NCBI GenBank assembly: GCA_963575745.1
Contig: CAUYUJ010014327.1
Span: 612,916-676,915 of the forward strand
From: Prorocentrum cordatum
Lineage: Eukaryota > Sar > Dinophyceae > Prorocentrales > Prorocentraceae
Reading direction: 5' to 3'
Length of the DNA: 64,000 nt
This document shows, in pieces, positions 7,931 to 59,970 of this stretch (position 1 is the stretch's first letter; each line of letters begins with the position of its first letter). The notes below the pieces were generated by a model. That model did no database searches, was not told the origin of the DNA, and was given only the letters and a program-made list of their open reading frames with translations. The translations under genes were made by a program, and so were the position numbers.

Positions 7931-8956
7931 TTGATGCCTGATGGCGCGTGCCGACTCGGCGCGAGCAGCACCACAAAAAAACAGGATGTCACTCGGTCCC
8001 GACGGTCGCGCGACACTTCGGGCGGGGAACCGATGCGCCCGACCCGCCCCGCTGCCCGATGGATGGAGGACGGGGGGGACATCGGTATAGGAGGTTGCGG
8101 AGATCGGGCGGTGACACGTGAGGGCGGGTCGGGCGCTTGGCCGAGGGGCAATGATAGGGGGGGAGTGGCATAGGGGGTGCGCATCGGCGTGGAATCGACG
8201 ATACATCACCGATAGATCGGCGATATGCCCCCGACAGCAAATCAGGACCTTCCTGGGCGGGTTGAGGCTATCATACCCCGATCGGCGATCAATGTGTACT
8301 TAGGGATCGATGCGCCTATGCCCTATGCCGATCTCCCCCCATATCGTTGCCCCTAATTGGCTCCCCCCAGAGTTTGGGCCGCCCCCCCCGCCATAATTCT
8401 GGTTGCCCCCCCGCGCCCCAACAGGCGCGGCCGAAGCGGGGGCCTCCTCCACAACGGTTTCGAGATCAAGCTGCGCCGATCGGCGTGCCCGCAGACTTCA
8501 TGCATATGACGCAGCAGGCGCCCGCCACTACCCTTTTGTCTTCCTGCTCCCCAACACAGTCGTATCGGCCCCGCGTGGGCCTCTGCACCGCACTCTCGCA
8601 GTCGGGTCTCTGGCCGCTCGGTGGGCCTCGCGTGGCCAGTCGGGGACACAAAGCAACGCAACGCACAGCAATACAACGCACTGTGGGCTGATAGATGATC
8701 GGATTGAGGTGAACTCGGTCTTTGGGCGGTTTGCAATTTAAGCTCGGATTCGGTCATCGTTGTATGCACCGTCGCTTACGGATAAAGCACTCACCACATG
8801 CGCCGCTGCACCTACCGCACCCTATCGCACACCGCACACATCGCCACGCACGCCTAAGCTAACTTCAAATATGCTAAGCGAAACGCATCCCATCACAACA
8901 AACACGAGGATCAACAACACCATAGCATGATCAGCACCGCCAACATCTAGACCCGT
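7931..8956. other. no gene seen; low-complexity and CACA/CGCAC-rich
   Basis: No frame with protein-like composition. Near 8640-8830 there are degenerate ACGCAACGCACAGC-like words. Ends at the relict spliced leader at 8957. Confidence 0.5.
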
Positions 8957-21832: not shown

Positions 21833-22114
21833 GTCACAAGCACCCGAGCAGGCGGCGTCCACGAATCTGCTGTGCGCAGCTGCTCTTCTCGGCACCTCCC
21901 GGCGCCCAGGAGGCGCCCCGTGCCTCGGCAGGTGGCCGCGAGACTGGCAGCCAGCGGCGGCTGCTGCCCCAATGCGGGCAGGGATCACGTCCCCCTCCGC
22001 AGGAGGCGAGACCGACGAGGCGCTCGCCGGGATCCTGGCACGCGGCGGCCATGGAGACTTTGGCTTGCCTACGCTTGCCATGTTTACCCTGAATAGATCG
22101 AAAATGCCGGGAAT

Positions 22115-22699: not shown

Positions 22700-24049
22700 T
22701 GACTCGCTCGGGCCCGAGAGGCTTATCAGACGGACCAAGAGAGCCCCAAAAGGCTCCCGAGACGGTCCGATAGGGCCCCGAGACGCTCCCAGATCGCCCC
22801 AGGACGCCTACGACTGCCCCAAGATGGCCCAAGAGGCCGCCAAGAGGGCCCAAGAGGCCTCCAAAAGGCATCCCAAGAGGGCCCCAGAAAGCCCAAATTA
22901 TCGATGTTCCGTCACTCGATGTTTGAAGGATTCTGGCGGTGTCGCCATTTCGGCTTCCCGACGCTCGCAGACGGCCCTAGAGGCCCCCAAGACCGCCCGA
23001 AGACGGCCTAAGAGGCCTCTGAGAGGGCTCCCAGACGGCCCAAGAGGCGCCGAAAAAAAAACCCAAGAGGGCACCTAGAAGGCCCCGAAATGCACCCAAA
23101 AGAAGAAGAAGAAGAAGAAGAAGAAACAGCAACACAAACCGAAAACCCGAGCCTTCCGCCCCACGAAACCCCTAGGAGACCCCAAGAGGCGCCCAGAAAA
23201 AAAGCCCCAAGAGGCCCCCAAACGGCCCCTACGAGGCGCCCAAACTGCCTCCGAGAGGCCCCCGAGAAGCCTCCCGCAAAATCCCAACGAACATCCAACA
23301 AGCTTCATACCCACATCCCAGGCACGGTGGCGGGATGGGCCGAAGACCATTAGACAATCCGCCGCCCCCTGTCGATTCATCGCAGGGGTGCCTGGCGTGC
23401 TTGACCCTTTCGGTTTTGGTTTTGGTTCTCTTTCCAAAAGAACTCTCCCAATGGGTTTCGGCCCGTCCCGCCACCGTGCCGTTCGCTCGGGACATCCTCA
23501 AAAAATCGCGAGGATGGCCCAATACGTTCGGGACATCCTCAAAAAACTCTCCCAATACCGCCAACTCCACGAAAAATCCTCCCTGAAACGGCCGTTTCGC
23601 TCGGGACATCCTCAACAAAAACGCGAAGATGGCCCAAGATGGCCTCCAAGTTCGCCCACAAGACGACCTCCAAGACGGCCCAAGAGAGTCCAAGACGGCC
23701 CAAGACGGCCCAAGAGGCCCCCCAGAGGCCTCCCAGACGGCCCAAGAGGCCTCCGAGAGGTCCTCCAGGAGGGCCCGAAGAGGCCCAAAGCCTTTATTGT
23801 CCGTAGGTGTTTGAAGGATTTGGGAATTTGCTTCTTCTCGGCATTCCGACGGCTCAAGACGGCCCAAGAGGCCCCCAAGATCGCCCAAGAGGCCCTCAAG
23901 AGGGTCCCATGACGGCCCAAGTGGCCTCCAAGACGGCCCCCAGAGGGCCCCAAGACGGCCCAAGAGGCCTCCAAGACGCCCCCCAGAGGGCCCCAAGACG
24001 GCCCAAGAGGCCTCCAAGACGCCCAAGATGGCCTCCAAGACACGCCCAC
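22700..24049. repeat. dispersed GGCCCAAGA-type repeat array
   Basis: Imperfect units such as GGCCCAAGAGGCCTCCAAGA and ACGGCCCAAGACGGCCC, with a less repetitive core (GTGTTTGAAGGATTTGGG ... TTCCGACGGC) near 22905 and 23800 and the GGTGCCTGGCGTGC block near 23390. Gly/Leu/Trp-rich minus-strand and Lys/Pro/Gln-rich plus-strand frames are shadows. Related arrays occur at 27.5, 30.2, 46.4, 48.2-53.7 and 60.9 kb. Confidence 0.85.
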
Positions 24050-24088
24050 GTGTTCCCCGAAGGCTTTCCAAACCGATTCGGGGAACAC
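24050..24088. repeat. hairpin A of the composite repeat
   Basis: GTGTTCCCCGAA, a 15-base loop, then TTCGGGGAACAC: a perfect 12-bp stem. Identical arms occur at 50184-50222 and, with one change, at 51951-51989. Followed by CCGATAGCTTGGCAGG and ACGTTCGGCCACATAGGCGC. Confidence 0.85.
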
Positions 24089-24359
24089 ATGGTCCGATAG
24101 CTTGGCAGGTCTGGCCTCAACGTTCGGCCACATAGGCGCTTCCACAAAGGCAGGGCGATAGAGACTTCAATACTGCCTAGATTTTCGCCTTCCCCTCCAC
24201 TTCCCATATTTTCCCATACCTTCAAGGGAATCTGCGTTTACGTGCGTCTGACCCTACGTTTCCCTTCTGATCCTCGGAGGGTGCCAGCGAGGCACCTCCC
24301 CAGGTGCACCCACTCCCTGCGCCGACCGGTGCCCCCGCGGGCCTCGCGAGGGGTGCCTA

Positions 24360-24570: not shown

Positions 24571-25136
24571 GGGGCAGACTTCACAGGGCCCTAGACAAGG
24601 CCTTCTTGGAGCCAGGCGGAGCCCAGAAGGAGCCCGCAGGGGCCCCTGTAGGGCCCTTTCCATCACCCCCCCAGCTAGGTCACCCACCCCTTGCCACCCG
24701 CCCGACCAGAGGCCGTGTGGACAGCCGGGCCAGGGACACCTTTTTGGCAGCACCCGGCTCCTCTTCGCGGCTCCTGGCAAACTGGCGCGACGAGAGGAAG
24801 CGGGCCTTACGGTAAAGATGGCACGGCGACCTGACGCGGTGGCTTGCGCGGACCGTCGGCGCGGCACGCCACGCTGCACACGAAGGCGCTCACGCGCGAC
24901 CTTGCGCGGGAAGCTCACGCGCGAAATCGGCGCAGACGGCCCCGTTTTCTGTCTGTGTCGCTGGACTGGCACGACGGAGACTGGTCGTGAGGGACACGGA
25001 TCCTGGACACCGGTGGGGGTCTCTCCCTGGGCCCCTGTTGTCGTCCCGGGCCCGTCTCCTTCGGCCCCAGGGCCAGTGGCGAGGGCCCACGGGAAGCCAA
25101 AGCGTGAGAAGTGATGATTCGGGGGGACGAAAACTT

Positions 25137-25342
25137 GGACGTCCGAAATGGGTACGGAAAGAATGGGTACAATGCCCAACAGCAGTTCCTGTCCATTCTG
25201 AACAGGGCTCGCTGTCGGTGTCGCCGTGGCATGTGTCCATTTGAGACAGAAGGCCGCCTGCCCAACAGCGGCCGCTGATGCTTGGGACAACATTTGCTGT
25301 TGAGCATTGTACCCCTTCTTTCCGTACCCACTTCGGGCATCC
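25137..25342. mobile_element. MITE-like element with long terminal inverted repeats
   Basis: Arms 25137-25182 and 25297-25342 are inverted repeats of about 46 bp with few mismatches (shared GGGTACGGAAAGAA and GGTACAATGC). Pairing continues inward through CAACAGCA. Total about 206 bp, no ORF. A target duplication was not identified. Confidence 0.7.
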
Positions 25343-26367
25343 AGAGAAAAGCGAGGAAAGGACCGGCTCGGGCAGGGATCTCGTCGCCCTACACCGGCCC
25401 TCTACAGGCCCCCGAGAGCGAGACCGCACGAGGCGGGGACCGGGCGGGGCGCCCGGGCCCCGCGCGGCGAGGAGTACGGGCGAGGGTGGGTCGACGCTCC
25501 ACCCTACAGTCGGGGCGTTGACCTTAAGGAACCCTAAATGAGGAACGAGGCCCCTTTTCTCCATAAGTTAAACTCCGATCTCCCATCGAGAACACAAGGA
25601 GAACGCCTGGGGCAAGCTGTGAAACAATTGAGGAACACGGGGCCCCTCCCCAACGAACAGGGTTCCTTCGTCAGCGACCCGACTGTACAGCCGGGCCTGG
25701 GCCGGAAGAGCCTCCCGCAGGAGCGTGGGGGCCCTCCGTCGGCCACAACGCACGGAGCGGCCAAGGGCACCCTCCCCGGGGTGCACGGGAACGTCCAACA
25801 GAAGCACGAAGCACACGGACCTGGGGGCGCCCGCCCGAAGCGACCTCGGTCTCGTGCCTCGGTCCGACTGCAGGGCCCTATAGGGACAGCCGCCTCCCCT
25901 GCAGGGTTGCCCCTGAGATCACCCACGGACCCCCTCCCCTCCGGAGCCCCCCGTTCTTCACATGCCCGTCGTTCGGGAGAACTGGGGAGACACACGAGGC
26001 AGGAAGGCGTTCACACTGGGTTGGGCCTCCGCCCGCCGCCTCGAGAGGATGGAGGAGGGAACACCAAACACGTGAAACGTACGTTGGTCACCTCAGAAGG
26101 ACCAAACACGTGAACATCATTTCTCTGAGGTCCACGCGGGCTTCTTGGATCGGCGCGGGGCCCACACTCTCTGGCGCGCGGGGCCCAACGGCAGCTCAGG
26201 ATCTGTCCCTGGGCCCCTCATGGGGCTCAAACGCACCAGCTCCCCTAGCTGCGCCCAGCCGTGGCGACGATGGGTCCCCCCGAAGGCCAACTACCGTTGC
26301 CTCAACTCGCCCTTCCCTGATACCCACTCGATACTCATGGCGGGGCGAGGCTTCTAGGGCAACCAAT
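25343..26367. other. no confident gene
   Basis: GC-rich mixed sequence without supported exons. Confidence 0.4.
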
Positions 26368-40447: not shown

Positions 40448-41003
40448 TCAATGCGGAGCTTGACCATCAAGAGCCGCTACTAAGGACATCGTCTTCTGGC
40501 ACCCTGCCTCAGGCGTCGCAGCCTCCGTGTAATCATCCTCGCCCAGCAGCCCTCCGATATGAAATCCAGCACGCCGAAGGTTCTTAAGGTAGACGTTCAA
40601 ATACTGCTGCCACTCGCCAGTGAGACAGTGGGCGACTTTGAGCTCCACCGGCCCGAAGCTCACCCATTTCGGCTTGTTGTCGCGCGCGACGCGAGCGTTG
40701 AAGCGGAAGCCTCCAGGCTTCGCCTTGTCTGCCCACGCCCCTGTGACGTTGACCTCCTGGAAGTACATGTCCGAGCATCGTGCTCCCAGTCGACGTGCGT
40801 CGGCCTGCACAACAAGCAGCGCGTCCTCGACGGGCTTTCCGCGTGGAATGCTGACCAAAATAGACTTGTCCGGCTTCGCCAAGACGAACCGCTGACCGAA
40901 CATATTCCGCAGGTGTGGGTCGCCGACGGCGGCCGCCTGCACCTGCGTCGGCGCTGCCGCCGGAGTCGGACCTGGCGTCGGCGTCGGACTTGAAGTCGGG
41001 CTT

Positions 41004-41036
<33 letters not shown>

Positions 41037-41111
41037 CTCGGCGACGGGCTTGGCGTCGGGCTTGAAGTCGGGCTTGGCGTCGGGCTTGGCGTCGGGCTTG
41101 GAATCGGGCTT

Positions 41112-41156
<45 letters not shown>

Positions 41157-41644
41157 CTTGGCGTCGGGCTTGGCGTCGGGCTTGGCGTCGGACTTGGAGT
41201 TGGGCTCGGCGTCGGACTCGGCAACTAGCTCGGCGTCGGGCTGGCGACGGGCTTGGCGTCGGGCTCGGCGTCGGACTCGGCGAAAGGCTCGGCGTCGGGC
41301 TGGCGACGGGCGTGGCGTCGGGCTCGGCGTCGGCCTCGGCGTCGGGCTTGGCGTCGGGCTTGGCGTCGGGCATTGAGTCGGGCTCGGCGTCGGACTTAGC
41401 GTCGGGCTCGGCGCCGGGCTCGGCGACGGGCGTGGCGTCGGGCTCGGCGACGGACTCGGCGTCGGACTTGGAGTCGGGCTCGGCGTCGGGCTTGGCGACG
41501 GACTCGGCGTCGGGCATGGCGTCGGACTCGGCGCCGGGCTCGGCGTCGGGCAGGCGTCGGGGTGGGCGTCGGGCTTCGGGGCTCGGCGTCGGGCTTGGCG
41601 TCGGGCTTGGAGTCGGGCTCAACGTCGGGCTCGGCGACGGGCTT

Positions 41645-41677
<33 letters not shown>

Positions 41678-42858
41678 CGTTGAGTCGGACTTGGCGTCGG
41701 ACTTGGCGTCGGGACGATCGGGCTCGGCGTCGGGACTTGGTGTGGGGCTCGGCGTCGGACTTGGCGTCGGGCTTGGCGTCGGGCTTGGCGTCGGACTTGG
41801 CGTCGGACTTGAAGTCGGGCTTGGCGTCGGACTCGGCGACGGGCTCAGCGTCGGGCTCGGCGTCGGGCTTGGCGTCGGAGTTGGCGTTGGGCTCGGCGTC
41901 GGGCTTGGCGTCGGGCTTGGAGTCGGGCTCAGCGTCGGACGCGGCGTCGGGCTCGGCGTCGGACTTGGCGTCGGGCTTGGCGTCGGGCTCGGCGACGGGC
42001 TTGGCATCGGGCTCGGCGTCGGGCTCAGCGACGGGCGTGGCGTCGGGCTCGGCGCCGGGCTCGGCGTCGGGCTTGGCGTCGGGCTTGGCGTCGGGCTTTG
42101 AGTCGGGCTCGGCGTCGGACTTAGCGTCGGACTTGGAGTCGGGCTTGGCGTCGGACTCGGCGTCGCGCCTGGCGTCGGCGCTGGCGCTGGCGAAGCCGAC
42201 GGTGCGGGCGTCGGCGCCGGCGAAGGCACCTGCGTCGGTGCCAGGGTCAGTGCCTCGAAGACGCGGGCGTGACGATAATTTTGCCCAGCACCGTCGTTCC
42301 AGCTCGCTCCAATGGCCACGCGGCTGCCGTCGCTGCTGGACGACACCGACTGGCCACTGCGATCGCCTAAGGCTTCGCCATCGATGTCCTGCCCCACCTG
42401 GATCCAAGTGTTGCCCGAGAGCCCGAAGACGCGAACGTGTCCAGAAGCTGACCCAGCGCCGTCGTTGGTTTCTGCTCGAATGGCCACGCGGCTGCCGTCG
42501 CTGCTCAGCGACGCCGAATGGCCACTGAAACCGCCAGAGGCTTCGCCATCGATGTCCTGCCCCACCTGGCTCCAACTGCTGCCCGAGAGCCCGAAGACGC
42601 GAGCGTGACCAGAACCTGACCCAGCACCGTCGTTCAACCTCGCTCCAATGGCCACGCGGCTGCCGTCGCTGCTCAGCGACACCGACTGGCCACTGCGATC
42701 GAATGAGGCTTCGCCATCGATGTCCTGCCCCAACTGGCTCCAAGTGTTGCCCGGGAGCCCGAAGACGCGAACGTGACCAGACCCGGACCCAGCACCGTCG
42801 TTCCCCTTCGCTCCAATGGCCACGCGGCTGCCGTCGCTGCTCAGCGACACCGAAGATC
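40448..42858 (-). pseudogene. propeller-repeat / PTPS-linker / GDPH-domain gene, 5'-truncated
   Basis: Minus strand. 42858-42250 holds four repeats of 56 codons (168-169 bp) of the type [35 protein letters not shown], a beta-propeller-like repeat I have seen in dinoflagellate surface proteins. About 42165-41000 is a 12-bp array encoding PTPS. 40925-40448 is a folded C-terminal domain: [103 protein letters not shown]-x7-G-x-F recalls von Willebrand type D domains. Indels in the array change its frame (PTPS to DAEP to RRAR), and a TAG stands near 41225, so the ends are in the same frame but not continuously open. The N-terminus is cut off next to a LINE fragment. Confidence 0.7.
40990..42165. 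repeat. 12-bp tandem array encoding PTPS
   Basis: About 95 units of GGCGTCGGGCTC / GGCGTCGGGCTT (plus strand). On the minus strand it is free of stops in all three frames except where units have diverged. Confidence 0.9.
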
Positions 42859-44894: not shown

Positions 44895-45087
44895 AATGTG
44901 GACCGCCTGTGCGTAGTTAGGATGAATGGAAAAGGGGTGGGCACGCGAGACGTCGACGCTGTGGGCAAAACAGGTGGTCATGGATTTTCAAGGCGCGGCA
45001 GGCTGGTGCCCGCAGAGGCAGTCAGATATCGTAATGTCACCGAAGGGCATGTTGGGCTGGGAAGCGCGGGTTGGAACAAACCCTTGC

Positions 45088-45460
45088 GAGCGTACGGCGG
45101 ATAGCGCCCCCACCTCCAGCGCACCCTCTGTGCTGTCGAGAAACTGCCACGCCTGCGACGCTTTGCGAGCGTACGACGGACAGCGCCTCAACCTCCAGCG
45201 CAGCCCCTGTGGTGTCGAGAACCTGCCACGCCTGCCACGCTTTGCGAGCGTACGGCGGATGGCGCCCCCACCTTCAGCGCACCGCCTGCGATGTCGAGAA
45301 ACTGCCACACCTGCCACGATGTGCGAGCGTACGACGGATAGCGCCCCCCGCGCCCCCACCTCCAGTGCACCCCTTCTGGTATCAAGAAACTGCCACCTCC
45401 GGTGCACCCCCTCTGTTGTGGAGGAAGTGTCGCGCCTGCCACGCTTTGCGAGCCCGAATC
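45088..45460. repeat. 79-bp tandem repeat, 4-5 units
   Basis: Units start GAGCGTACGGCGGATAGCGC at 45088, 45167, 45246 and 45325 (exact 79-bp spacing) and carry CTGTCGAGAAACTGCCACGC. The fourth unit has an insertion and the fifth start is at 45449. Confidence 0.9.
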
Positions 45461-47941: not shown

Positions 47942-50900
47942 CTGAGGCACGAAGTGGAATGTCCTCAGGTGAAGGCTGCACAGGAGGTAGGCGTGCTGGA
48001 CAAAGTGCGCTGGTGGCGCGTGGCCCTAAATTAATTCAGTAAGCCAAAAGTAATTTAAGTCTAAGTAAGCCAAAAGGTAATAAGCAAGCCTAAGTAAGCC
48101 AAAATGGAGCCCTCTGCGCTCGGCATTGTATTGCTCTCCGAGGGGCCCAGCCCCGAGTTCTGGTCGCTCATGGGGCTGCCCGCAGGCCCTTCGAGAAGCG
48201 TGTCGAGGCATTCTCCCTTGGGCTGGAGGACCCTGACGCGTGCACAGCGAGGGCCTCCAAGAGGCTCCCAGAACGGTCGAAGCGGGCCCCGAGACGGCCC
48301 AAGAGCGACAGAGAGGCCCGTAAGGCGCCCCAAGAGGGCTCCAGGAGGCCCCCAAATAGGGCCCAGGCAACACGATTAAATTCCTATAAGTTCTGTCAGA
48401 CTTTAACTTTCTCGCCATGTTGGGCTTCCGGCGTTCCAAGACGGCCCAAGATGCTCCCAAGATCGCTCCAAGACGGCCCCAGATGTCCCAAGAAGCCTTC
48501 AAGACGGCCCAAGAGGGCCCCCAAGACGACCCCAGAAGCCACCAAGACGGACAAGAAGGCCCCAAGAGGAAAACTCGAACTGACATTTCGAGTCCGCCGC
48601 CCCTAAGAAGCCCCCAAGAAGTCCAAGACAGCGCGCAAGAGGCCCCAAGACACCCCCAAACCGCCTCCAAGAGGCTTCCGTTATGGCTCCCAAGAGATCT
48701 CCACAGGCATCCAATAGCCGACTGACCTACATTCCAGGCGCGGTGGCGGGATGGGCCAAAGACCACTAGATCCGCCGCCCCCTGTCGATTCATCGCAGGG
48801 GTGCCTGGCGTGCTGGACCCTCTCGGTTTTGGTTTTGTTTCCAAAAAACTCCCCCCGGGGCTTCGGCCCGTCCCGCTGGCCATCCGGAAAACCCATCCGT
48901 CAATGCGTCTGTTGCGCCAAGATGGTCCAAGATGGCCTCCAAGACGGCCAAGATGGCCCAGGATGGCCTCCAAGATGCCTCCAAGACAGCTAAGATGGCT
49001 CCAAGATGCACTCAAGACGGCCCAAGATGGCCTCAAGATGGTCTACGACGGCCCAAGAGGCCAGCAAGAGGCCTCCAAGACGGCCCAAGAGCCCTCCAAG
49101 ACGTCCTCCTGGAAGGCCCGAAAGGACCAAAACCATTGATTGCCCTTAGGTTTTCTAAGGATTTTGACATTTGCGCCTTTCCGGTTTTCCGACGGCCCAA
49201 GAAGCCCCCAAGATCGCCCAAGAGGCCCCCAAGAAGGCCCCATGACGGCCCAAGTGGCCTCCAAGACGGCCCCAAGAGGGCCCAAGACGGCCCAAGAGAC
49301 CTCCAACACGCCCAAGATGACCTCCAAGACGCCCAAGATGGCCTCCAAGACGGCCCCGAAGCGCCCCAAGAGGGCACCATGTCGGCCCAGAAAGGCCCCC
49401 AAGATGGCCCCCGACGGACCAGGAACCCATCAAGATGGCCGAAGTTGGCTCGAAGCTGGCCCAAGACGGTCCAAGAGGCCCCCAAGAGGGCCTCCAGGAA
49501 GTCCAGAAGACGCCCAAATCATGGATGTTCCTACGATTTTTGACGGATTTTGACATTTGCTTCTTTTCGGCCTTCTGACGGCCCGAGACGGCCCAAGAGC
49601 CCCCCAAGATCGCCGAAAGATCGCCCAAGAGGCCTCCAAGATGGCCCCAGAATGGCCCAAGAGGGCCCCAAGACGGCCCCAAGAGGCCCCCAAGACTGCA
49701 CAGGAGGCCTTTAAGACGCCCAAGATGGCCTGCAAGACGGCCCTGGAGCATTCCAAGAGGGTCCCAAGTCGGCCCACAGAGGCCCCCCAAACGGCTTCCG
49801 ACGGCGTCAGACGGACCAGGAGCCCACCAAGGCGGCCGAACATGGCCCTAAGATGGTCCAAGACGGCCCAAGAGGCCTCCAAGAGGGCATCCAGGAAGGC
49901 CCGAACATACAAAAATCATGGATTTCCCATGGGTTTTTTGAAGGACTGTGGCATTTTCGTTTTTCCTGCCTTCCGACGGCCCGAGACGGCCCAAGTGCCC
50001 CCAAAGATCGCCCAAGAGGCCCAAGACACAGCCCCAAGAGGCCCCCAAGACGGCCCAAGAGGCCTCCAAGACGCTCAAGGTGGCCTCCAAGACGGCCCAA
50101 GAGCCCTCCAAGACGTCCTCCAAGAAGGCCCGAAAGGGTGAAAATGGCCTCCACACGGCCAAGATGACCTTCAAGATGCCCACGTGTTCCCCGAAGACTT
50201 TCCAAACCGATTCGGGGAACACATAGTCCGATAGCTTGGCAGGTCTGGCCTCAACGTTCGGCCACATAGGCGCTTCCAAAAAGGCAGGGGGCGGCGGTGA
50301 TTCGCCGTAGGCGTCTTCGATCCGCCGCCCCCTTTTGATGTATCAAAAGAGGTGCCTGGCGTGCCATATTATATGGTGTTTGGTGTTGGTTCTTTGTCCA
50401 GAAGAACTCCCTAGGGCTTCGGCCCGTCCCGCCGGGGTCCTGGGAGATTCCCGAAGATCCATCCGTCAATGCCTCGGTTGCCCCAAGTTGGCCCAAGATG
50501 GCCTCCAAGGGCCAAGATTGCCCAGGATGGCCTCCAAGATGCCTCCAAAACAGCCAAGATGGCCTCAAAGACGGCTAAGATGGCTCCAAGATGCACTCAA
50601 GACGGCCCAAAATGGCCTGAAGATGGTCTACGACGGCCCAAGAGGCTCGCAAGAGGCCTCCAAGACGGCCCGAGAGGCCTCCAAGAGGTCCTCCAGGAAG
50701 GCCCGACGAGGCCCAAATCATTGATTGTCCTTAGGTGTTTGAAGGGTTTGGGCATTTGCGCCCTTTCGGCTTTCCGACGGCCCAAGACGGCCCAAGAGGC
50801 TCCCACGATCGCCCCAAGATCGCCCAAGAGGCCCCCAAGAGGGCCCAAGTGGCCTCCAAGACGGCCCCAAGAGGGCCCAAGACGGCCCAAGAGACCTCCA

Positions 50901-53900
50901 ACACGCCCAAGATGGCCTCCCAGACGCCCAAGATGGCCTCCAAGATGGCCCCGAAGTGCCCCAAGAGGGCCCCAAGTCGGGCCAGAAAGGCCCCCAAGAC
51001 GGCCCCCGACGGCGTCAGACGTGCCAGGAATCCACCAAGATTGCCGAAGTTGGCTCGAAGCTGGCCCAAGACGGTCCAAGAGGCCCCCAAGAGGGCCTCC
51101 AGGAAGGCCAGAAGAGGCCAAAAACATTGATGTTCCGAATGTGTTTGACGGATTTTGGCATCTGCTTCTTTTCGGCCTTCCGACGGCCCAAGACGGCCCA
51201 AGTGCCCCCAAAGATCGCCCAAGGCCCCCAAGACGGCCCCCGACGGCGTCAGCCGTGCCAGGAATCCACCAAGATTGCCGAAGTTGGCTCGAAGCTGGCC
51301 CAAGACGGTCCAAGAGGCCCCCAAGAGGGCCTCCAGGAAGGCCAGAAGAGGCCAAAAACATTGATGTTCCGAATGTGTTTGACGGATTTTGGCATCTGCT
51401 TCTTTTCGGCCTTCCGACGGCCCAAGACGGCCCAAGTGCCCCCAAAGATCGCCCAAGAGGCCCACGACAGCCCCCAGAGGCCCCCAAGACGGCCCCTGGA
51501 AGCCTCCAAGACGGCCCTTTCCAAGAGGGCCCCAAGTCGGCCCATAGAGGCCCCCCAAACGGCTTCCAACGGCGTCAGACGGACCAGGAGCCCACCAAGG
51601 CGGCCGAACATGGCCCTAAGATGGCCCAAGACGGCCCAAGAGGCCTCCAAGAGGGCCTCCAGGAAGGCCCGAAAATTATGAAATCATGGATTTCCCATGG
51701 GTGTTTGAAGGATTGTGGCATTTTCTTTTTTCCTGCCTTCCGACGGCCCGAAACGGCCCAAGTGCCCCCAAAGATCGCCCTAGAGGCCCAAGACACAGCC
51801 CCAAGAGGCCCCCAAGACGGCCCAAGAGGTCTCCAAGACGCTCAAGGTGGCCTCCAAGACGGCCCAAGAGCCCTCCAAGACGTCCTCCAAGAAGGCCCGA
51901 AAGGATGAAAATGGCCTCCACACGGCCAAGATGACCTTCAAGATGCCCACGCGTTCCCCGAAGGCTTTCCAAACCGATTCGGGGAACACATGGTCCGATA
52001 GCTCGGCCATGTAGGCGCTTCCAAAAAGGCAGGGGGCGGCGGTGATTCGCCGTAGGCGGCTTCGATCCGCCGCCCCCTGTGGCTTGCTACAGGGGTGCAA
52101 GGCGTGCACGACGTTCGGTAGTTGTGGGGTCTTTTGTAAACATTCCACGGGCATTCGGACCAATCCGCCGGCCACCCGGAAGGTCGCACAAACCTCCGGA
52201 CCTGTTGGTTGTTCCGCCATCAGCACCTGCTCACACGGCCCCAAGATGGTCTCCAAGACGGCCAAGATGGTCCCCACGACGGCTACCATGGCCGCAAGAG
52301 AGCCCAAGATGGCCGCAAGATGTCTTCAAGACGGGCCGAGATGCTCCCAAGATGGCCTCAAGATCGCCCAAGAAGCCTCCAAGACGGCCCAAGAGGCCCC
52401 CAAGACGACCTCCAGGAAGCCTCGAAGAGGCCAACATCATGGATTGCCAATCGTTTTTTGCAGGATTCTGGGGTTTGCTCATTTCTGACTTTCCGACGGC
52501 CCAAGACGGCCCAAGAGCGCCAAAGAAACCTCCACGATGGCTCCCTGGTATCCCGAGAGGCCCCCAAAACAGCCTCAAGGGCTCCAAGACGTCCCAGGAG
52601 ACCTCCAAGACGCCCAAGATGGTCTCGAAGATGGCCCTGAAGCGCCCCAAGAGGGCCCCTAGCCCTAGTCGGCCTAAGGAGGTCCCCAAGACGGCTACCG
52701 ACGGCATCAAACGGGCCAGGAGCGCCCTCAGACGACCAAAGAACCCCCCAAGGAGCCTCCAAAGGCCCCCAAGACTCCAAGAGGCCCAAGGAAGGCCGAG
52801 GAAGCTGGGGCGGCGGCGGTTCGCCGCAGGCGTCTGAGATCCGCAGCCCCATGTTGGCTTGCAACAAGTCGGCGACTCCAAAGGTTGTGGTTTGCAAAGG
52901 GTGTGATTTGCAACAGGCACCCTGGGGCACCCTGAGGGGCGCGCGGGGACCTCAACAGAGTTCTCCCGCGCCCCGAGCAGGCCCGACGAGGACTGTGTCG
53001 TGCCCCCCAGGCCCCAACGGTGCCGATCGCAAACCACACCCCGGCGTAAGCAGACCCTTCGTAGTCGCCGAACAGGGGTGCCACGCGTGCCAGAACTGAG
53101 GCAACGTCTGGTCTTTACGAAGGCTCCCAATAGGGTATCGGTCGATCGCGCCAGTCCTGCGGAAAAGAATTTCCATCTGCTTTCCGCGCCATGAGAGCCC
53201 ATAAAAGTCCCAGGTCGTCGGCCTGCCTGCTCTAGACGCTCCCACGATGGCCTCCAAGACGGCCAAGATGGTCAACCAGACGGCTACGAGGGCCCCAAAG
53301 AGGCCACGACAACCCCAGGATGTCTCCAAGATGGGCCCAGATGCCCCCAAGACGGCCCAATATAGTCCCAAGATCGTCCAAGACAGCCTAAGAAGTCTCC
53401 AAGACGGCCTTAAAGGCCTGCGAGAGGATCTCCAGGACGAGGGCCCCAAGACGGCCAGGAGACCTCCAAGACGCCAAAGATGCTATCAAAAACGGCCCTG
53501 AAGCGCCCCAAGAGGGCTAAACGTCGACCCAGACCGGCCCCCAAGACGGCATCCGACGCGCCAGGAACGCCCTCGGACGGCCAAGGAGCCTCTCAAGAAG
53601 CCTCCAAAGGCCCCCAAGAGGCCCAAGGACGCCTCGACGAGGCCTCAACAGGAAGCTCCTGGGAGGCTCCAGGAGTGCCCCAAGAGAGCTCTTCCTCTTT
53701 CTCCTCCTTGTTCCTCCCCCTCATCCTCTCCTCCTTCCTCCCTCACTTGTTCCCCGAATGATTTCCACAACGGCTTGAGAGCCCAGAATGAGAATCGATA
53801 AATCGGATCGGCTTAGTGCGCCTCCAATAAGACATCGGAACCCAAATCGGAATCCGAAGTCGGATCGAATCGGAATCGAAAGCCATCGACGTCGGCTCGA

Positions 53901-56900
53901 ATCGGCTCGAATCGGATCGAATCGAGCCTGCAACGGCTAGGGAAACACGTAGTCCGATAGCTTGGCCGAGCTCTGGCTGCAAAACGTTCGGCCATGCAGG
54001 CTCTCCCCAAAAGGCAGGCAGGAAGCGGCGGTGAAATTCGCCGCAGGCGTCTTCGATACTGGATAAGCCAATCGCATTCGGCATGGAGTTGGGAGAGGTA
54101 CTTGTCCGTTGCCATGAGCGCCTTGGCGGTGCTGGCGCTGTCGTCCTTGGCCGCCTGCAGGTCGCTCTCCAAGTCTGCCTTCTCGGCGGCCTTGGACGTC
54201 AGCGTCTTGGAGTCGGTCGTGCGCTTGTCCTTCGCGCCCGCGATCGTCCTGTCATAGTCCTCCTGCGAGTCCTTCTCCTCTGTCTCGGCCTCGGTCATCT
54301 CCTTGCGGCGGCGAGCCCGGGGGGAAGTGAGAAAGAGAAGGCTTTCTTGGAGGGCTCAGCAGCCCCCCGGCCTTCTGAGAGATTCTCAAACTTGAGCAGG
54401 GACCGACCGCCCCAGCATTCCTAACACGAAATGCTGTTAGAACCCAACAGTGTTCTAATACTATGTAAAAGTTATTGGAACATGAACCCGATGTGTTAAA
54501 TAACAACCGTCTTTACCAGAAATGTTCTAAAACCATTTCGTGCAGACAATAAAAGTGTCTTAGAACTTTCTCTCGTGGGACTATAGGCGAGCCAGGACGC
54601 TTCGCCACTGCTTGACTAACGCCTTCCCCGAAGACGCAGGAAACCTCCCCGAAGGCGCGAGGGTTTCTGAGAAGCCCCGCCGCCTTCTGAGAAGGCCATC
54701 TCCTTCTCACTCCCCCCTCTCGCTCGCCGCCGATCCTTGTCGAGATCGCTGATCAGCAGGTCCATCATGGCGATGACCCCAGCACTCTCCTCGGACTTCT
54801 TCGCGTACGCGCTCCAGGTCTCTGGCGGCGGTGCGCCAGCGCTCGTGCGCTGCGCGCGCTCGGACACCTGCACCAGCGCCGCCGAGCTGCCCATGTCGCG
54901 CTCGATGGCGCCCTGGGCGGAGAGCTCGACCTTGGCCGGCGGGTTGTACAGCTTAGGATCCGCCGCCCGGGCCTCGTGCAGCGGTCGGCGTGCGTCGGGC
55001 CCCTGGCGTCTCTCGGCGCGTTTCCCGCCCCAGGTCCCCCCCTCACCAGTCCTGGGGAAAGCATCCACGACGCTTCGAGCCACAGAGGTGCACCCACCTG
55101 CTGACCCAGGCCCCCGACGTCATGATTTGTTCATTGCGTCGACACCCGGAGGTCTGCACCCATTCCCAGGGACCAGGTCTTTCATCCCGAGTCGTTTCGT
55201 GGACAGTCCCGAGGCCTGGCAGGGGCCCCCAGAGGCCGAAACTAGCGAAAACCCTCCCGTCGTGATGATTTCTTCACGACTCGAGGGGGTCAGGGGAGGG
55301 GGGAGGGCGGCGAGGGGGATGAGGAAGAGGAGGAGGAGGAGGAGGAGGAGGAGAAGGAGGAGGAGGCGGAGGAAGAGGAGGAGGGGGAGGGGGAGGAGGA
55401 GGAGGAGGAGGAGGAGGAGGAGGCCCTGTGTCTGCGCGCTTCTCTCTTTTTATGTTTGTTATGCCCTCGGCACGGCACGCTGCCCGGGAGCCCCGCGGAT
55501 CCTCCCCCCCAGAGCCTGCTTCCCCTGGCGCCTCCTCCTCCCCACGGCGCGGCGGCGGATGCAGGCGCGGCAGCGCACCGCGATTGTAGAACTGGTTGAG
55601 CCTGTTCCTGTCGGGTCGGGCGAAAGGGGGGGATAGCAAAGGGGGGGTTTTAGAATCAGCTCACGTAGCTGATTTCCCCGGCGCCTCCCGGCGCCGGAGG
55701 CGGCTATGTATCGAGGACTGGGCCCCTCGGTGGGGCCGAAACCAGCTGCATGCAGCAGATTTCGCAACCCCCCCTTTCCCAATCCCCCCCTTTCGTCCGG
55801 CCCGATCCTGGCGAACAGGAGCAGTTCCTTCGCGGCGCCGTCTGCGGCCATCAGCGCCTTGTACTCCTCGTGCTCGCCCTTCCGCAGCGCCGTCGCCTCC
55901 GCGACGCTCTTGTCGAGGGCCGCGATGCCGGTCTCCAGCGCCGAGATGTCCTCCGCGGCGCTGCTGATGCTCTCCTTCGTGCTCGCGATGGCAGTCGCGA
56001 GGTCCGACGCTTCGCGTGTCAGCGACTTCTTCTTGTCCTCTGTGGAATCAAACTGCGAGCCACAGTACTCCTTCTTCTCCGCGTCATCGGCCTGCTCTTT
56101 CTTGAGCAGAACGACCATATCGTCGATCATCTTGATCACAACCTCGAACCCGACCTTCTTTCCTCGGAGTGCCAGCACCAGGAAGCCGAGGCGGGCGTGG
56201 TCCGCCTCGCTCTTCAGCTGCGCTTGCTGGACCAGGGCCACGGCGCGCGCGCGCTGGCTGGTGGTCGTGACCGCGACCTGCATCAAGCTCGCACTGGGCA
56301 CCGGGAGTGTCTTCTCCACCGGGGCCCATGGTGGGGGCTACCAGGCTGTGCTGAACGAACCCACCCTTTCGGAGCGGTCTGGGCTGGCCAGTGCGCAACT
56401 TGGGGCCATCGTGGGTCCTGTTGAGGCCCTATTCGGCAGACATCGGTTCGCCGTGAGGCCGTGTTGGGCCTGTTTTTGAACTCTTTGCGATCCTCTGGGA
56501 CCACGCTGCACCTTGTGAGGCTCTCTTGTGATGTCTTGGGGGCCGCTTTGGGTGGCCCCTGGGTATGTCTTGAGCACCATCGGGAACCCGAGATCCCCTC
56601 CCTGACGGCTCAGCTAAGACTCTGCATGAGGAGGCACCCCCAAAAATGTGAATCACTCGGTGTCCTCTGTCTGAGGTCCCCCTTAACTCACAGACTCTGT
56701 TGGTGCCCGCCTGAGGCCCTCTGGGATTATCTTTTGAGATGGCGGGCGCCGTGGGACTGTCTGCAATGCTGGGAGCGCCCTTGGGAGGCACTGCGGCTAT
56801 CTCATGGCCCTCCTCGATGCCCCTTGCGGCCTTTTAGGCCGTCCTGGAAATCACGGGGCCTCCCAGGACGGATATTGGAGAAGTCCAGGGAGGCGGGAGT

Positions 56901-58872
56901 AAAAGTGTACAATTGTAGCCCTGAGGGTATGCTGGGGAACCTGTCTGGGGGCCAAACTTCGCATGTACTAGATCCACTGCTTGGGGCCCTTGAGGCTCCG
57001 AAACCATTTACAAACTAGTCAAACTGGCGCCATGGAAGCACCAAGCATGCGCAACACACGCAGGCACACACAGGCACGCACACACACACACACACACACA
57101 CTAGGCGCCCATGCGGTTGAAAACTGATCAAGCTATGATGCACAATGCACTCCAGGCCTCAAAGGGAATATATGCTTTAATATGTGAGCCAGCGTGTATC
57201 CAAAAATTGTGAAATCTATGCGGTGTAAACGTTGTGGTTTGAGATACGTGAGTGGAGTGAACAGTGGAACTGGAGCCTGTGCGATGTGAACTAGAAAGTG
57301 CAAGCTACGCATCGTGAGACATGTGGTATGAGCTGGAGCTCGAAGCCACGCGGTGCAACCTGAAATGTTAGACAGCGCGGCCCCCGAACGGTGGGTTACT
57401 GCACTGTGGAGTGGAGACTGTAGGGCGTAAGCAAGTGGGTGTAAGCAGTGTAAAGCAAGCTGTGTGATGCGAGCTGTGGAGGTGAATGCTGTACGGTGTG
57501 AGCCATGTGATACAAAAGGATCATCAGTTTCGAGAACACCTGAAGTGCAAGCACAGTTTGAGGACAGATTCACGTTTGCTCTCTGGATGCGTCAGGACGC
57601 GACTAGAGACACTATCGAGTTCTTGTGGGGCCGAAGGTGGACCTGAATAGCTGCAAGCTGGTCCAAGAAAGACCAGAGGTACCTCAACAAGTCCCCAGGA
57701 GGGCCTGAAGACCGTCCAGGGCTGCCACCACTGATAGGCTCGAACTTGTCAACAAAATTGCAAACATGATCCCAAGAAGCCCCACAGAGGTTAAACCTCC
57801 GACTATCCCAAAATGACAGATTCCACGGGGGGGGGGAGGCAACGGCACAGGGGGGTCCCTCTGGATTGAACAGCTCCAGCGCATCGTCGTCATTCAGAAT
57901 CTTGATGGTCTCAGTGAGGGCGGCGAGCTCATCGTGACGCGTCTTCACGCGTTCCTCGTAATCCTTGTCCTTCGTAGAGCAGCCCGATTCCAACTCTTGG
58001 AGGAGCTTCTGATCTTCGAGCAACGCAGTTTCTGACTCGCTCAAATCATTCTTCATCTGGACGATGGTCACGCCCAGCGACCCGCTCTTCGAGGTCTTGG
58101 CCTCGACGGACAGTGTCAGCGCGTCGATCTCTTTGGCCTTTGCAGCGACCACGGCCTCGAATTCCTTGATTGCGTTGGCCTCCATGTCAGAAGCGTCTGC
58201 CAAGCTCTTCGAGAAACTGTCGCCCATTTCCTTCAGAATTCCGGTCACCTCCCCGCTCTGGGGCACGTACGCGGAGCTGCCCTTCCCAGACAGGAATGAG
58301 AGGAGCACCTCGCGGTCGTCGTCTTGGATAGCGTCTCCCTTGGTCAAGACGATGTTGCGCAACAGGCTTGCCGACGTAGTCTGCAGAAATCCACCCGCCA
58401 TTCCTTTAGTCAGCGCGGCGACTGCCTGCTTGATGGCAGAAATGTAGCTCTCGAGCTCTGACTTTGTGGCCGCGAATTTCGCAGCGTCCCTCCCGCGGAT
58501 CGAGGTCGCGGTGGCGACGGCCGTCTTGGCTTCAGCGCGCTCCGTCTGCGCTTCCTTCAGCCCCTGCTTCACCTGGGAGAGCTGCTCCTCCGCTGCCTTC
58601 AAGTCGGAGCCAAGCTGGGTGCCCGTCGTGCCCGCAGCGGAGATGCTTGCAGCGAGATCTGCGGCCCCCGTCTTGCAGTAGCAGGAGAATTTCTTGTACA
58701 TCTCCTCCTCCTTTTCGCCTTCGGCCTCAACCTTCTTCTGCATCGACTGCAGCATCGAAACAACCCTGCGCACCGGATTAGCGGCTGCCCTCGCGTTCGA
58801 CCGCAGGGAGGCGGCCTGCCCAGTGGCCGGACATGCGACCAGCAGAAGGGCCGCGAACTTGAATGCAGCCAT
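47834..58872 (-). CDS. secreted coiled-coil protein gene, six exons (whole model)
   Basis: Exons, minus strand: 58872-57866, 56314-55808, 55607-55582, 54956-54736, 54301-54056, 47941-47834. They sum to 2115 bases, 704 codons plus TAA, in frame at every junction. Residues 1-20 (MAAFKFAALLLVACPATGQA) are a signal peptide, followed by RRVVSMLQSMQKKVEAEGEK, a CYCKTG motif and long helical, coiled-coil segments to the C-terminus GKAKAVLSGADYSLL. From memory this is an abundant dinoflagellate-only family of unknown role, probably secreted or cell-surface. A decayed DinoSL lies about 53 bases before the ATG. Introns 2 and 4 are introners; intron 5 is 6.1 kb of repeats. Confidence 0.8.
48020..48112. 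repeat. GTAAGCCAAAA direct repeats
   Basis: GTAAGCCAAAA occurs three times, about 30 bp apart (48041, 48068, 48098), inside intron 5 near its 3' end. Confidence 0.6.
48740..48860. repeat. composite repeat: GGTGCCTGGCGTGC block with hairpin C
   Basis: CCGCCGCCCCCTGTCGATTC ATCGCAGGGG forms hairpin C, followed by GGTGCCTGGCGTGC and TCTCGGTTTTGGTTTTG. Nearly identical to 23325-23440. Confidence 0.75.
50184..50222. repeat. hairpin A, second copy
   Basis: GTGTTCCCCGAA / TTCGGGGAACAC, perfect 12-bp stem, 15-base loop. Confidence 0.85.
50286..50362. repeat. hairpins B and C, composite repeat
   Basis: Hairpin B: GGGGGCGGCGG, TGATTCGCCGTAGGCGTCTT, CGAT, CCGCCGCCCCC. Hairpin C: CTTTTGAT-GT-ATCAAAAG. 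Then GGTGCCTGGCGTGCC. Confidence 0.8.
50990..51457. repeat. 234-bp tandem duplication
   Basis: 50990-51223 is repeated at 51224-51457 almost without change, including the core GATGTTCCGAATGTGTTTGA. Confidence 0.85.
51951..51989. repeat. hairpin A, third copy
   Basis: GCGTTCCCCGAA / TTCGGGGAACAC. Confidence 0.8.
52030..52108. repeat. hairpins B and C, third copy
   Basis: Hairpin B with an 11-bp outer stem; hairpin C is CCCCTGTGGC-TT-GCTACAGGGG (one G-T pair), then GGTGCAAGGCGTGC. Confidence 0.8.
53739..54056. repeat. interrupted composite repeat with CGAATCGGAT insertion
   Basis: Left half of hairpin A (TGTTCCCCGAA at about 53747) is separated from GGGAAACACGTAGTCCGATA (about 53940) by about 170 bp rich in CGAATCGGAT words. 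Hairpin B remains as GCGGCGGTGAAATTCGCCGC. The end of this copy is the start of intron 5. Confidence 0.65.
54056..54301 (-). CDS. coiled-coil gene exon 5
   Basis: Reads EMTEAETEEKDSQEDYDRTI, AGAKDKRTTDSKTLTSKAAE, KADLESDLQAAKDDSASTAK and ATDKYLSQLHAECDWLIQY. The intron starts ATCGAAGACGCC, which is the inverted end of the composite repeat (hairpin B side). Confidence 0.8.
54302..54735 (-). mobile_element. introner forming intron 4 (434 bp)
   Basis: Target-site duplication CAAGGA at 54739-54734 and 54305-54300. Ends: TCGGCGGCGAGCGAGAGGGG followed by GAGTGAGAAGGAGATGGCC, and inverted CGGCGGCGAGCCCGGGGGG followed by AAGTGAGAAAGAGAAGGC, some 45 bp of terminal inverted repeat. Splicing AAG|GATCGGC...GCAAG|GAGATG restores DLDK-EMTEAETEEKD. 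Same TIR family as 59051-59226 and 59768-59970. Confidence 0.9.
54736..54956 (-). CDS. coiled-coil gene exon 4
   Basis: Reads PKLYNPPAKVELSAQGAIER, DMGSSAALVQVSERAQRTSA, APPPETWSAYAKKSEESAGV and IAMMDLLISDLDK, ending at the duplicated CAAGGA. Confidence 0.8.
55320..55425. repeat. GGA purine repeat in intron 3
   Basis: (GGAGGA)n. Confidence 0.9.
55582..55607 (-). CDS. coiled-coil gene exon 3, 26-base microexon
   Basis: Encodes the junction residue plus NRLNQFYN. The pattern LLLFAxNRLNxFYNPKLY is what I expect for the family, so the microexon is required to join exons 2 and 4 in frame. The 3' boundary (AATC|GCGG) is a GC donor; the next acceptor (GGATC|CTAAG) lacks AG. Confidence 0.7.
55608..55807 (-). 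mobile_element. introner forming intron 2 (200 bp)
   Basis: Target-site duplication CAGGA at 55810-55806 and 55610-55606. Element ends TCGGGCCGGACGAAAGGGGG and, inverted, TCGGGTCGGGCGAAAGGGGG; pairing extends about 42 bases with further G-runs. Internal hairpins include AATCAGCT-ACGTG-AGCTGATT. Splicing AG|GATCGGG...GACAG|GAAC uses the AG|G of each duplication and restores ...LLLFAR-NRLNQFYN. Confidence 0.85.
55808..56314 (-). CDS. coiled-coil gene exon 2
   Basis: Reads KKTLPVPSASLMQVAVTTTS, ARAVALVQQAQLKSEADHAR, VGFEVVIKMIDDMVVLLKKE, DAEKKEYCGSQFDSTEDKKK and AADGAAKELLLFA. A KEYC cysteine and charged heptads are visible. Ends GCC AG at the duplicated CAGGA. Confidence 0.85.
57060..57105. 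repeat. CA microsatellite in intron 1
   Basis: (CA)n. Confidence 0.85.
57170..57505. repeat. degenerate GTGCGATGTGAGC words in intron 1
   Basis: Recurrent 10-12 base words such as TGTGATGCGAGCTGTG and CGGTGTGAGCCATGTGATAC. Confidence 0.55.
57866..58872 (-). CDS. coiled-coil gene exon 1
   Basis: Start codon ATG at 58872. Carries the signal peptide, FSCYCKTGAADLAASISAAG, SELESYISAIKQAVAALTKG, DREVLLSFLSGKGSSAYVPQ, SGEVTGILKEMGDSFSKSLA and TIKILNDDDALELF, ending with AA of a Lys codon. Intron 1 (57865-56315) begins TCCAGAGGGACC and ends so that its inverted end reads TCCACCGGGGCC; these may be short terminal inverted repeats, but the acceptor lacks AG. Confidence 0.85.
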
Positions 58873-59050: not shown

Positions 59051-59226
59051 TCGGCGGCGAGCGAGGAAGGCCTTCTCAGAAGGTTCGGAAATCCCCCGGC
59101 CTCCTAAGGAATTTTCTAAGCCTTCCTCAGAGACACAGAAGACAACTCAGAAGGCCGGAGCGCTTCCGAGAAGCCCCGTCGCCTTCTGAGGCCTTTTCCT
59201 TCTCACTTCCCCCCCTCGCTCGCCGC
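59051..59226 (+). mobile_element. non-intronic relative of introner 4
   Basis: Starts TCGGCGGCGAGCGAGG and ends CTCGCTCGCCGCCGA, with inner GGCCTTCTCAGAAGG and TTCCTTCTCACTTCCCCC: the same terminal inverted repeat as intron 4. 176 bp. No exact target duplication seen. Confidence 0.75.
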
Positions 59227-59767
59227 CGAGAGAAAGGAGAGGAGGAGGACAGAATAAGCGCGCTCGCGGAATACCTGACATCCGACCCTTCCCACCCATC
59301 CCGTCCGACCGTCGGGTGTTGCCAAAGGTGACCCTGACCCAAAAGGCCCCCCTTGCCGTCGCTCGGACGTCCATTTCCCGTGCATTTTTCGGTTTCGTGC
59401 GTGTTTTGGTTTTTCGATGGTCCAGGATGGTGATCGATGGTTCTCGCCGAGAAAAAATGCACACGTCCGAGCGATGCCAAGCCCCAACTTGAGGCTCCAG
59501 TTTGGAGCCCCTGGCCTCCCCGGGCCTCGCGAGGGGTGCTCTGAAGGCCGAGGGGCCTCCTCGGAGATCCTGGGGACGCCTGGGGCCAGGGACGCTGCCG
59601 TCCGGCAACGCCCGAGGCTGCGCTGGACTCTCTCTTCTCCGCTGGCCAGGGCATCCTCGATGACCCTGGTCCCCCGAGCGAGGCCATCGCGTGGTGCGCT
59701 AGCAGAAAGGGGGCCTTGTACAGTGGGCCAGGAGGAGGTATGATGATGGGGAGGAGGCGATGAACAT

Positions 59768-59970
59768 TCGGCGGCGAACTAGGGGGAGAAGTGAGAAGGA
59801 AAAAGCCTTCCCAGAAAGCGGCGGGGCTTCTCGGAAGCCCTCCTGCGGCCTTCTGAAAAGATGTCCGTGTCTTCGGGGCAGGCTTAGAAAACTCCTCAGA
59901 AGGCAAAGAGGGCTTCCGAGCCTTCTGAGAAGGCCCGCCCCTTCTCAATTCTCTCTGGGCTCGCCGCCGA
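59768..59970 (+). mobile_element. second non-intronic relative of introner 4
   Basis: Starts TCGGCGGCGAACTAGGGGG then AGAAGTGAGAAGG and ends CTCTGGGCTCGCCGCCGA. 203 bp. Flanks AACAT and AACGT may be a diverged 5-bp target duplication. Confidence 0.75.

Follow-up and report, generated by a model that had tools for sequence, protein, structure and literature searches.

The evidence supports reading intron 2 of a gene in the 64-kb stretch of Prorocentrum cordatum DNA analysed here (the window) as a transposon-born intron, that is, a terminal-inverted-repeat (TIR) introner, whose splicing is deduced from homology. Very probably, a 195-nt MITE inserted into an exon at the sequence CAGGA, the resulting target-site duplication (TSD) supplied both splice sites, and GA-AG removal of the element restores the mRNA. 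A single assembly holds the filled copy, its duplicate, and 13 empty paralogous sites, which makes the origin of this intron easy to read. The case points to a general transposon, as opposed to a specialised introner, as a possible source of GA-AG introns.

The host gene and its inferred intron

The interrupted gene, whose product the original prediction took to be coiled-coil, runs on the minus strand from 58872 to about 54059, and its second intron consists of nearly nothing beyond the 195-nt element. The features of the gene and of the element are as follows.

57868..58872, minus strand: exon 1, end approximate (exon model and homologue matches)
55808..56313, minus strand: exon 2, start approximate (exon model and homologue matches)
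55608..55807, minus strand: inferred intron 2, GA-AG, 200 nt (exon model, homologue alignment, and empty sites)
55806..55810, minus strand: upstream TSD CAGGA, whose AG is the end of exon 2 and whose final GA is the inferred 5′ donor (sequence; 5-bp TSDs in other copies)
55611..55805, minus strand: complete, non-autonomous TIR element (MITE) of 195 nt (inverted ends and family copies)
55761..55805, minus strand: 5′ TIR on the gene strand, beginning TCGGGCCGGACGAAAGGGGGGG (arm comparison and TIR-consensus scan)
55656..55760, minus strand: element interior with further hairpins (folding)
55611..55655, minus strand: 3′ TIR, pyrimidine-rich (CCCCCCCTTTGCTATCCCCCCCTTTCG), adjoining the acceptor (sequence and arm comparison)
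55606..55610, minus strand: downstream TSD CAGGA, source of the inferred AG acceptor (sequence; other copies)
55583..55607, minus strand: exon 3, 25 nt, end approximate, reading R-NRLNQFYN with the split codon (exon model and homologue alignment)
54736..54957, minus strand: exon 4, start approximate (exon model and homologue matches)
54059..54301, minus strand: exon 5, end approximate (exon model and homologue matches)

In the exon model, exons 2 and 3 join at GCCAG|GAAC to give ...AADGAAKELLLFA-R-NRLNQFYN.... The original prediction held that no coding sequence is lost at AG|GA and, with these predicted splice sites, the joined frame would indeed run on continuously with that of the homologues. 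A Pfam search with the spliced protein finds no family at 1e-3; PF27870 is the database entry for many of its homologues. The G+C content of the window lies between 0.57 and 0.66 per 4 kb, and the reported P. cordatum mean is 59.7% (PMC10666404). Intron 3 (54958-55582) contains a long GGA repeat. At its downstream end the homologues need FYN|PKL, yet no fitting AG acceptor is seen (GCGGAT|CCTAAG).

Structure of the element

The inverted ends of about 42 bases, the 5-bp CAGGA duplication, and the hairpin-rich interior that had been described from the letters alone are all present. The arms at 55611-55655 and 55761-55805 are 45 nt long and pair at 36/45 positions (80% complementary), the 5-bp direct repeat (TCCTG on the plus strand, CAGGA on the gene strand) stands exactly at both ends of the element, and the folds place further hairpins in the interior. 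An exhaustive scan of the window, covering all 7.0 million combinations of start and length between 150 and 259 nt and requiring an exact 5-nt repeat together with 30 or more of 45 inverted end positions, passes two places: the element itself (36/45) and an element-like stretch at 25134-25345 (38/45). A second scan, for 5-nt repeats with 14/20 inverted ends at lengths of 60-1200 nt, likewise yields two matches in the window, the element and 54305-54733, against 0-1 per sequence and three in total in eight first-order Markov controls. The folding z-score of the element is -8.9 as DNA and -7.95 as RNA, with 0/200 shuffles equally stable in either case. On these scans and folds, the inverted-repeat element and the direct repeat at 55606-55810 are confirmed as real, beyond chance.

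Within the window the element stands alone as a full-length copy, no second one being found by self-comparison or TIR scan. The 20-nt TIR consensus has no second match in the 64 kb at up to three mismatches (shuffle expectation 0.06), and the partial matches to the element are weak, for example 41 nt at 21875-21915.

Family copies across the genome

The family was sought in the whole assembly (4.13 Gb in 21,875 contigs). A first-look search with a 205-nt query, which included both window TSDs and so biased the flanks toward the window’s own target, returned 4,272 candidates, of which 40 were scored, with identities of 95-100% across 195 nt or more in each. Exact matches to an internal 20-mer number 92, against 0 for its reversed control. 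A pattern made up of one G/C, four unspecified positions, and the initial 19 nt of the 5′ TIR has 2,194 exact matches, with 0 for its control. With 2,194 matches for a single class of 5′ end, the family numbers thousands of copies, so that the possibility of no other copies, named beforehand as grounds for abandoning the introner reading, is ruled out.

Two samples of copies were examined. The first comprises 39 of the 40 scored candidates, the fortieth being the window copy, and in this flank-biased sample 34/39 have an exact 5-bp TSD. The second comprises 88 of the 92 20-mer copies, the other four being the window copy and three already sampled; with ends free to shift by up to 6 nt, 55/88 have an exact 5-bp TSD, as do 48 of the 61 that align over the full length. 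When the right ends are re-dealt among the 88 copies in 200 trials, the mean is 2.0 and the maximum 6. These counts are not independent, since duplicated regions are present, with unique left flanks in 85/88 and 37/39 copies. Consensus sequences built from the 39 copies and from 75 of the 88 give the same 195 nt except for one base, which lies inside the 20-mer, and six positions separate the window copy from the first consensus. The family thus has the marks of a MITE: a length of 195 nt, TIRs, a 5-bp TSD, and high copy number. Three longer variants (L173, L179, and L180) carry about 170 nt extra just after a 38-nt 5′ end, and this insert has no stop-free run longer than 56 aa.

Target preference and coding context

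Among the 55 TSDs of the 20-mer sample, seven are NAGG, of which five end in A, C, or T; NAGGA accounts for two, and the mirror form NCCTN for six. The family appears to be a general MITE whose 5-bp targets are diverse and mostly not AG|G, and which makes an intron only occasionally. The original designation as a TIR introner is qualified in this respect, the family not being confined to introns (AG|G in 7/55). Exon targeting had been considered from an excess of NAGGA in the 39-copy sample and was dropped, as the query held both TSDs and the 20-mer sample gave diverse targets.

It is unlikely that the family is instead a dedicated introner whose copies are mostly introns and which is strongly selected for, or targeted to, AG|G sites in exons. 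Genome-wide, AGGN precedes the 5′ TIR 358 times and the mirror CCTN 214 times (binomial 1.9e-9), and AGGA outnumbers its mirror by 141 to 96 (p=0.004), as such an introner would have it. A control triplet nevertheless tilts similarly, with AAGN at 149 and CTTN at 103, and the AGG tilt does not differ significantly from that of the control (Fisher p=0.35 for AGGN and 1.0). Splice selection as an account of the AGG orientation excess was dropped on this ground. The near-equal 7/55 and 6/55 above also speak against dedication, as does the coding context of the copies, judged by a crude score of GC by codon position that was trained on one gene and applied at the joined flanks with a threshold of at least 10. 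For the first 20 listed copies of each kind, with AGGG copies skipped, 2/20 AGG copies pass in sense and 2/20 in antisense, against 3/20 and 2/20 for CCT; there is no clear difference between them, and the AGG and CCT counts retain six copies with wrong 3′ ends, namely nested, reversed, or longer copies (L150, L160, L170, L173, L179, and L180). By the same crude one-gene score, 3/88 20-mer copies and 6/39 flank-biased copies pass, compared with 26/264 random flank points.

A second exonic copy

Exonic insertion is clear in two cases, the window gene and a KH-domain gene that is split by a family copy at C4369:386707-386911. Joined at CAG|GA, the KH gene matches Pfam KH_1 over the junction (E=1.7e-12), and when more of the locus is taken in, the joined frame extends to 607 aa and contains a series of KH-like repeats. 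Without splicing, this frame meets a stop within the element. The empty site is represented by a sister KH repeat of that 607-aa frame, which reads GTCCAGGACATC; at the DNA level, GGTGGTCCAG|GACATC in the sister unit is the empty form of GGTGGTACAG|GACATC at the insertion. In this gene, a neighbouring repeat thus preserves the empty site of the insertion.

Further candidates are of a different grade. Three copies (L017, L022, and L038) are open across AG|GA but match no Pfam family, and in DNA as GC-rich as this, open frames are frequent. Another (L021, CAG|GC) has a DnaJ match of 3.4e-5, below the Pfam cutoff.

The junction in homologues and the public gene model

Homologues of the spliced protein were compared at the junction among the best 120 of 6,432. 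In 118 of these 120 the alignment is free of gaps up to 10 columns from the junction; this number includes P0001, which has different residues there, and the remaining two, P0010 and P0012, have a gap after FYN. The residues following the junction are NRL in 118 of the 120, NKL in one, and IGP in P0001.

P0001, an NCBI Prorocentrum cordatum protein, is the best of these 120 homologues, at 97% identity over the 361 residues searched, and belongs to the window gene or to its duplicate. Its FARIGPARAADPKL stands in place of the FAKNRLN(Q/K)FYNPKL of most relatives, such that IGPARAAD replaces NRLNQFYN. As read here, the model would splice from a donor lying 10 nt into the element to an AG of intron 3, leaving out the 25-nt exon 3. 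This junction is the main result against clean GA-AG splicing of intron 2. P0001 also joins exon 1 to exon 2 slightly differently from the exon model used here, and the paralogue models P0010 and P0012 are likewise odd, at the next junction on the FYN side. Gene prediction easily misses a short exon flanked by two poorly predictable introns.

Taken at face value, the P0001 model would mean that the element is retained, or spliced from a donor within its TIR, leaving a paralogue that is altered or dead. In the frame of exon 2 the element is open, with no stop ahead of exon 3 when it is read through and with 200 nt shifting the frame; because this read-through frame stays open, a stop does not argue against retention of the window element. 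Such an outcome is still very unlikely. Of the best 120 homologues, 119 have NRL or NKL just after the junction, and the exon 3 residues that correspond to it are intact in the window. The aligned exon bases of the duplicate gene (L001 on C17782, compared with window positions 54059-57240) are 98-100% identical, with 502/506 in exon 2, against about 96% in introns 1, 3, and 4. The copy in the KH gene, if retained, would meet the stop described above.

Empty sites at related loci

The predicted clean removal of the element as a GA-AG intron also agrees with the paralogues. When the junction-spanning protein was compared with the assembly (150 of 535 candidates scored), the window locus and its duplicate on C17782 matched only up to residue 91, and 12 paralogues of 87-91% identity continued through the junction without stops. 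All 13 paralogue pieces that were fetched are contiguous at the junction and are without the first 12 nt of the TIR, in keeping with the earlier expectation of intronless related loci, here found within the same assembly. The element in the window breaks up an exon that relatives keep whole.

The site reads GCCAAGAA in 11 paralogues, GCGAAGAA in L147, and GCTAAAAA in L148, compared with GCCAGGAA in the window. The AGG (Arg) codon of the window is AAG in 12/13 paralogues and AAA in L148, and among the best 120 of 6,432 homologues the junction residue is Lys in 107 and Arg in two. The AG acceptor needs a base that is missing from all 13 paralogues. Because both TSD copies carry this base and the paralogues do not, the substitution creating the AG|G site probably preceded insertion of the element. 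Between the window gene and the C17782 duplicate the element is identical at 195/195 positions, and gene conversion is a possible source of this identity.

The empty sites bear directly on whether an older intron already stood at this position, with the MITE inserting into it later or replacing its content. The window gene has other introns, and P. cordatum introns are long, with a reported mean of 4,709 bp (PMC10666404), two points in favour of such an intron. An older intron is highly improbable here, since the TSD falls exactly on both splice boundaries with zero leftover intron sequence and 13/13 fetched paralogues are without an intron at the position. As for a foldback or inverted repeat of local origin that is not mobile, which the strong self-complementarity might call to mind, its chance is negligible, being refuted by thousands of same-ended copies, many with 5-bp duplications.

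Proposed mechanism

For the reading preferred here, insertion of the MITE into an exon, the following course is proposed. A transposase making 5-bp staggered cuts would have moved the 195-nt MITE into exon 2 at CAGGA, and the target duplication would have left CAG|GA at either end of the element. A spliceosome that accepts GA donors could then remove the element together with one TSD copy (GA...AG), restoring the pre-insertion mRNA exactly. The GA donor would come from the first TSD copy and the AG acceptor from the second, with the element contributing neither dinucleotide. The contribution of the element to splicing may lie in its pyrimidine-rich 3′ end and in a foldback stem that draws the splice sites together. 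A GA donor is ordinary in P. cordatum, because 23.8% of its introns are reported to use GA, next to 24.7% with GT and 51.4% with GC (PMC10666404).

The 55 TSDs of the 20-mer sample share the register N-[A/C]-N-[G/T]-N. With an NAGG target, this register would place AG at the acceptor and G[A/C/T] at the donor, and tolerated GA/GC donors would make such insertions spliceable. It is conceivable, if doubtful, that an ordinary MITE makes introns by way of this register and that P. cordatum owes its GA donors largely to fossil target sites rather than to a tuned introner feature.

Other repeats in the window

A probable TIR element of a different kind occupies another intron of the same gene.

54302..54735, minus strand: intron 4, GA-AG, with inverted ends at 54305-54733 and a 5-bp repeat AAGGA (exon model and scan)

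Elsewhere, copies of a different high-copy repeat are 77-80% identical to the middle of this intron (query positions about 119-342), so that intron 4 probably consists of a second TIR element with a repeat nested inside it. In self-comparison, 54616-54733, 59069-59229, and 59768-59935 resemble the end sequence of the intron 4 element on both strands. Elsewhere in the window, 8142-8356 has a TIR-like pair (20/24) with a TTGGC direct repeat and a G-run in its ends. Self-comparison also delineates direct-repeat arrays at 40958-42238, 42256-42853, and 45084-45453, and a common, diverged, highly repetitive family at 22726-24155 and 48249-53623.

Relation to known introners

Introners are reported to be enriched in genes in 161/175 genomes (PMC9860276). 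As the original prediction stated, TIR introners are known in dinoflagellates: the one described from Symbiodinium microadriaticum has the TIR of a DNA transposon, a 4-bp TSD, and a 3′ splice site within the element (Gozashti et al. 2022, PMC9860276). It resembles the present element in its dinoflagellate host, in combining a TIR with a short TSD, and in co-opting a splice site from the TSD. The two differ, in a comparison by description only, in the TSD (4 bp as opposed to 5 bp here) and in the 3′ site, which the Symbiodinium element brings itself, whereas both dinucleotides would come from the TSD here. The Florenciella introner is alike in carrying neither splice site, according to the legend of Fig. 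2E in the same article, but it belongs to another lineage (PMC9860276). Dinoflagellate introner families that create introns are also attributed to Polarella glacialis (Roy et al. 2023, as cited in PMC11453091), a likeness again drawn by description only. Amoebophrya introners share inverted repeats, direct repeats over the intron boundaries, and a hairpin; they are described with varied non-canonical boundaries and without a family-specific inverted-repeat motif, in contrast to the uniform 5-bp TSD and constant ends found here (Farhat et al. 2021, PMC7789003).

In P. cordatum itself, 10.4% of genes are reported to contain introner elements (PMC10522408), and introns are reported as enriched in such elements by a pattern search that looked close to the ends of introns for 8-20-nt inverted repeats together with 3-5-nt direct repeats (Dougan et al. 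2023, PMC10666404). That work and the present one share the species and the combination of inverted with direct repeats. As presented in that article, the result is a pattern count without a described family, while the present analysis adds a consensus, a TSD, a copy number, and empty sites. The literature searched, which did not extend to supplements, holds no description of the 195-nt family. The element is filed as a new family of a known kind, the TIR introner.
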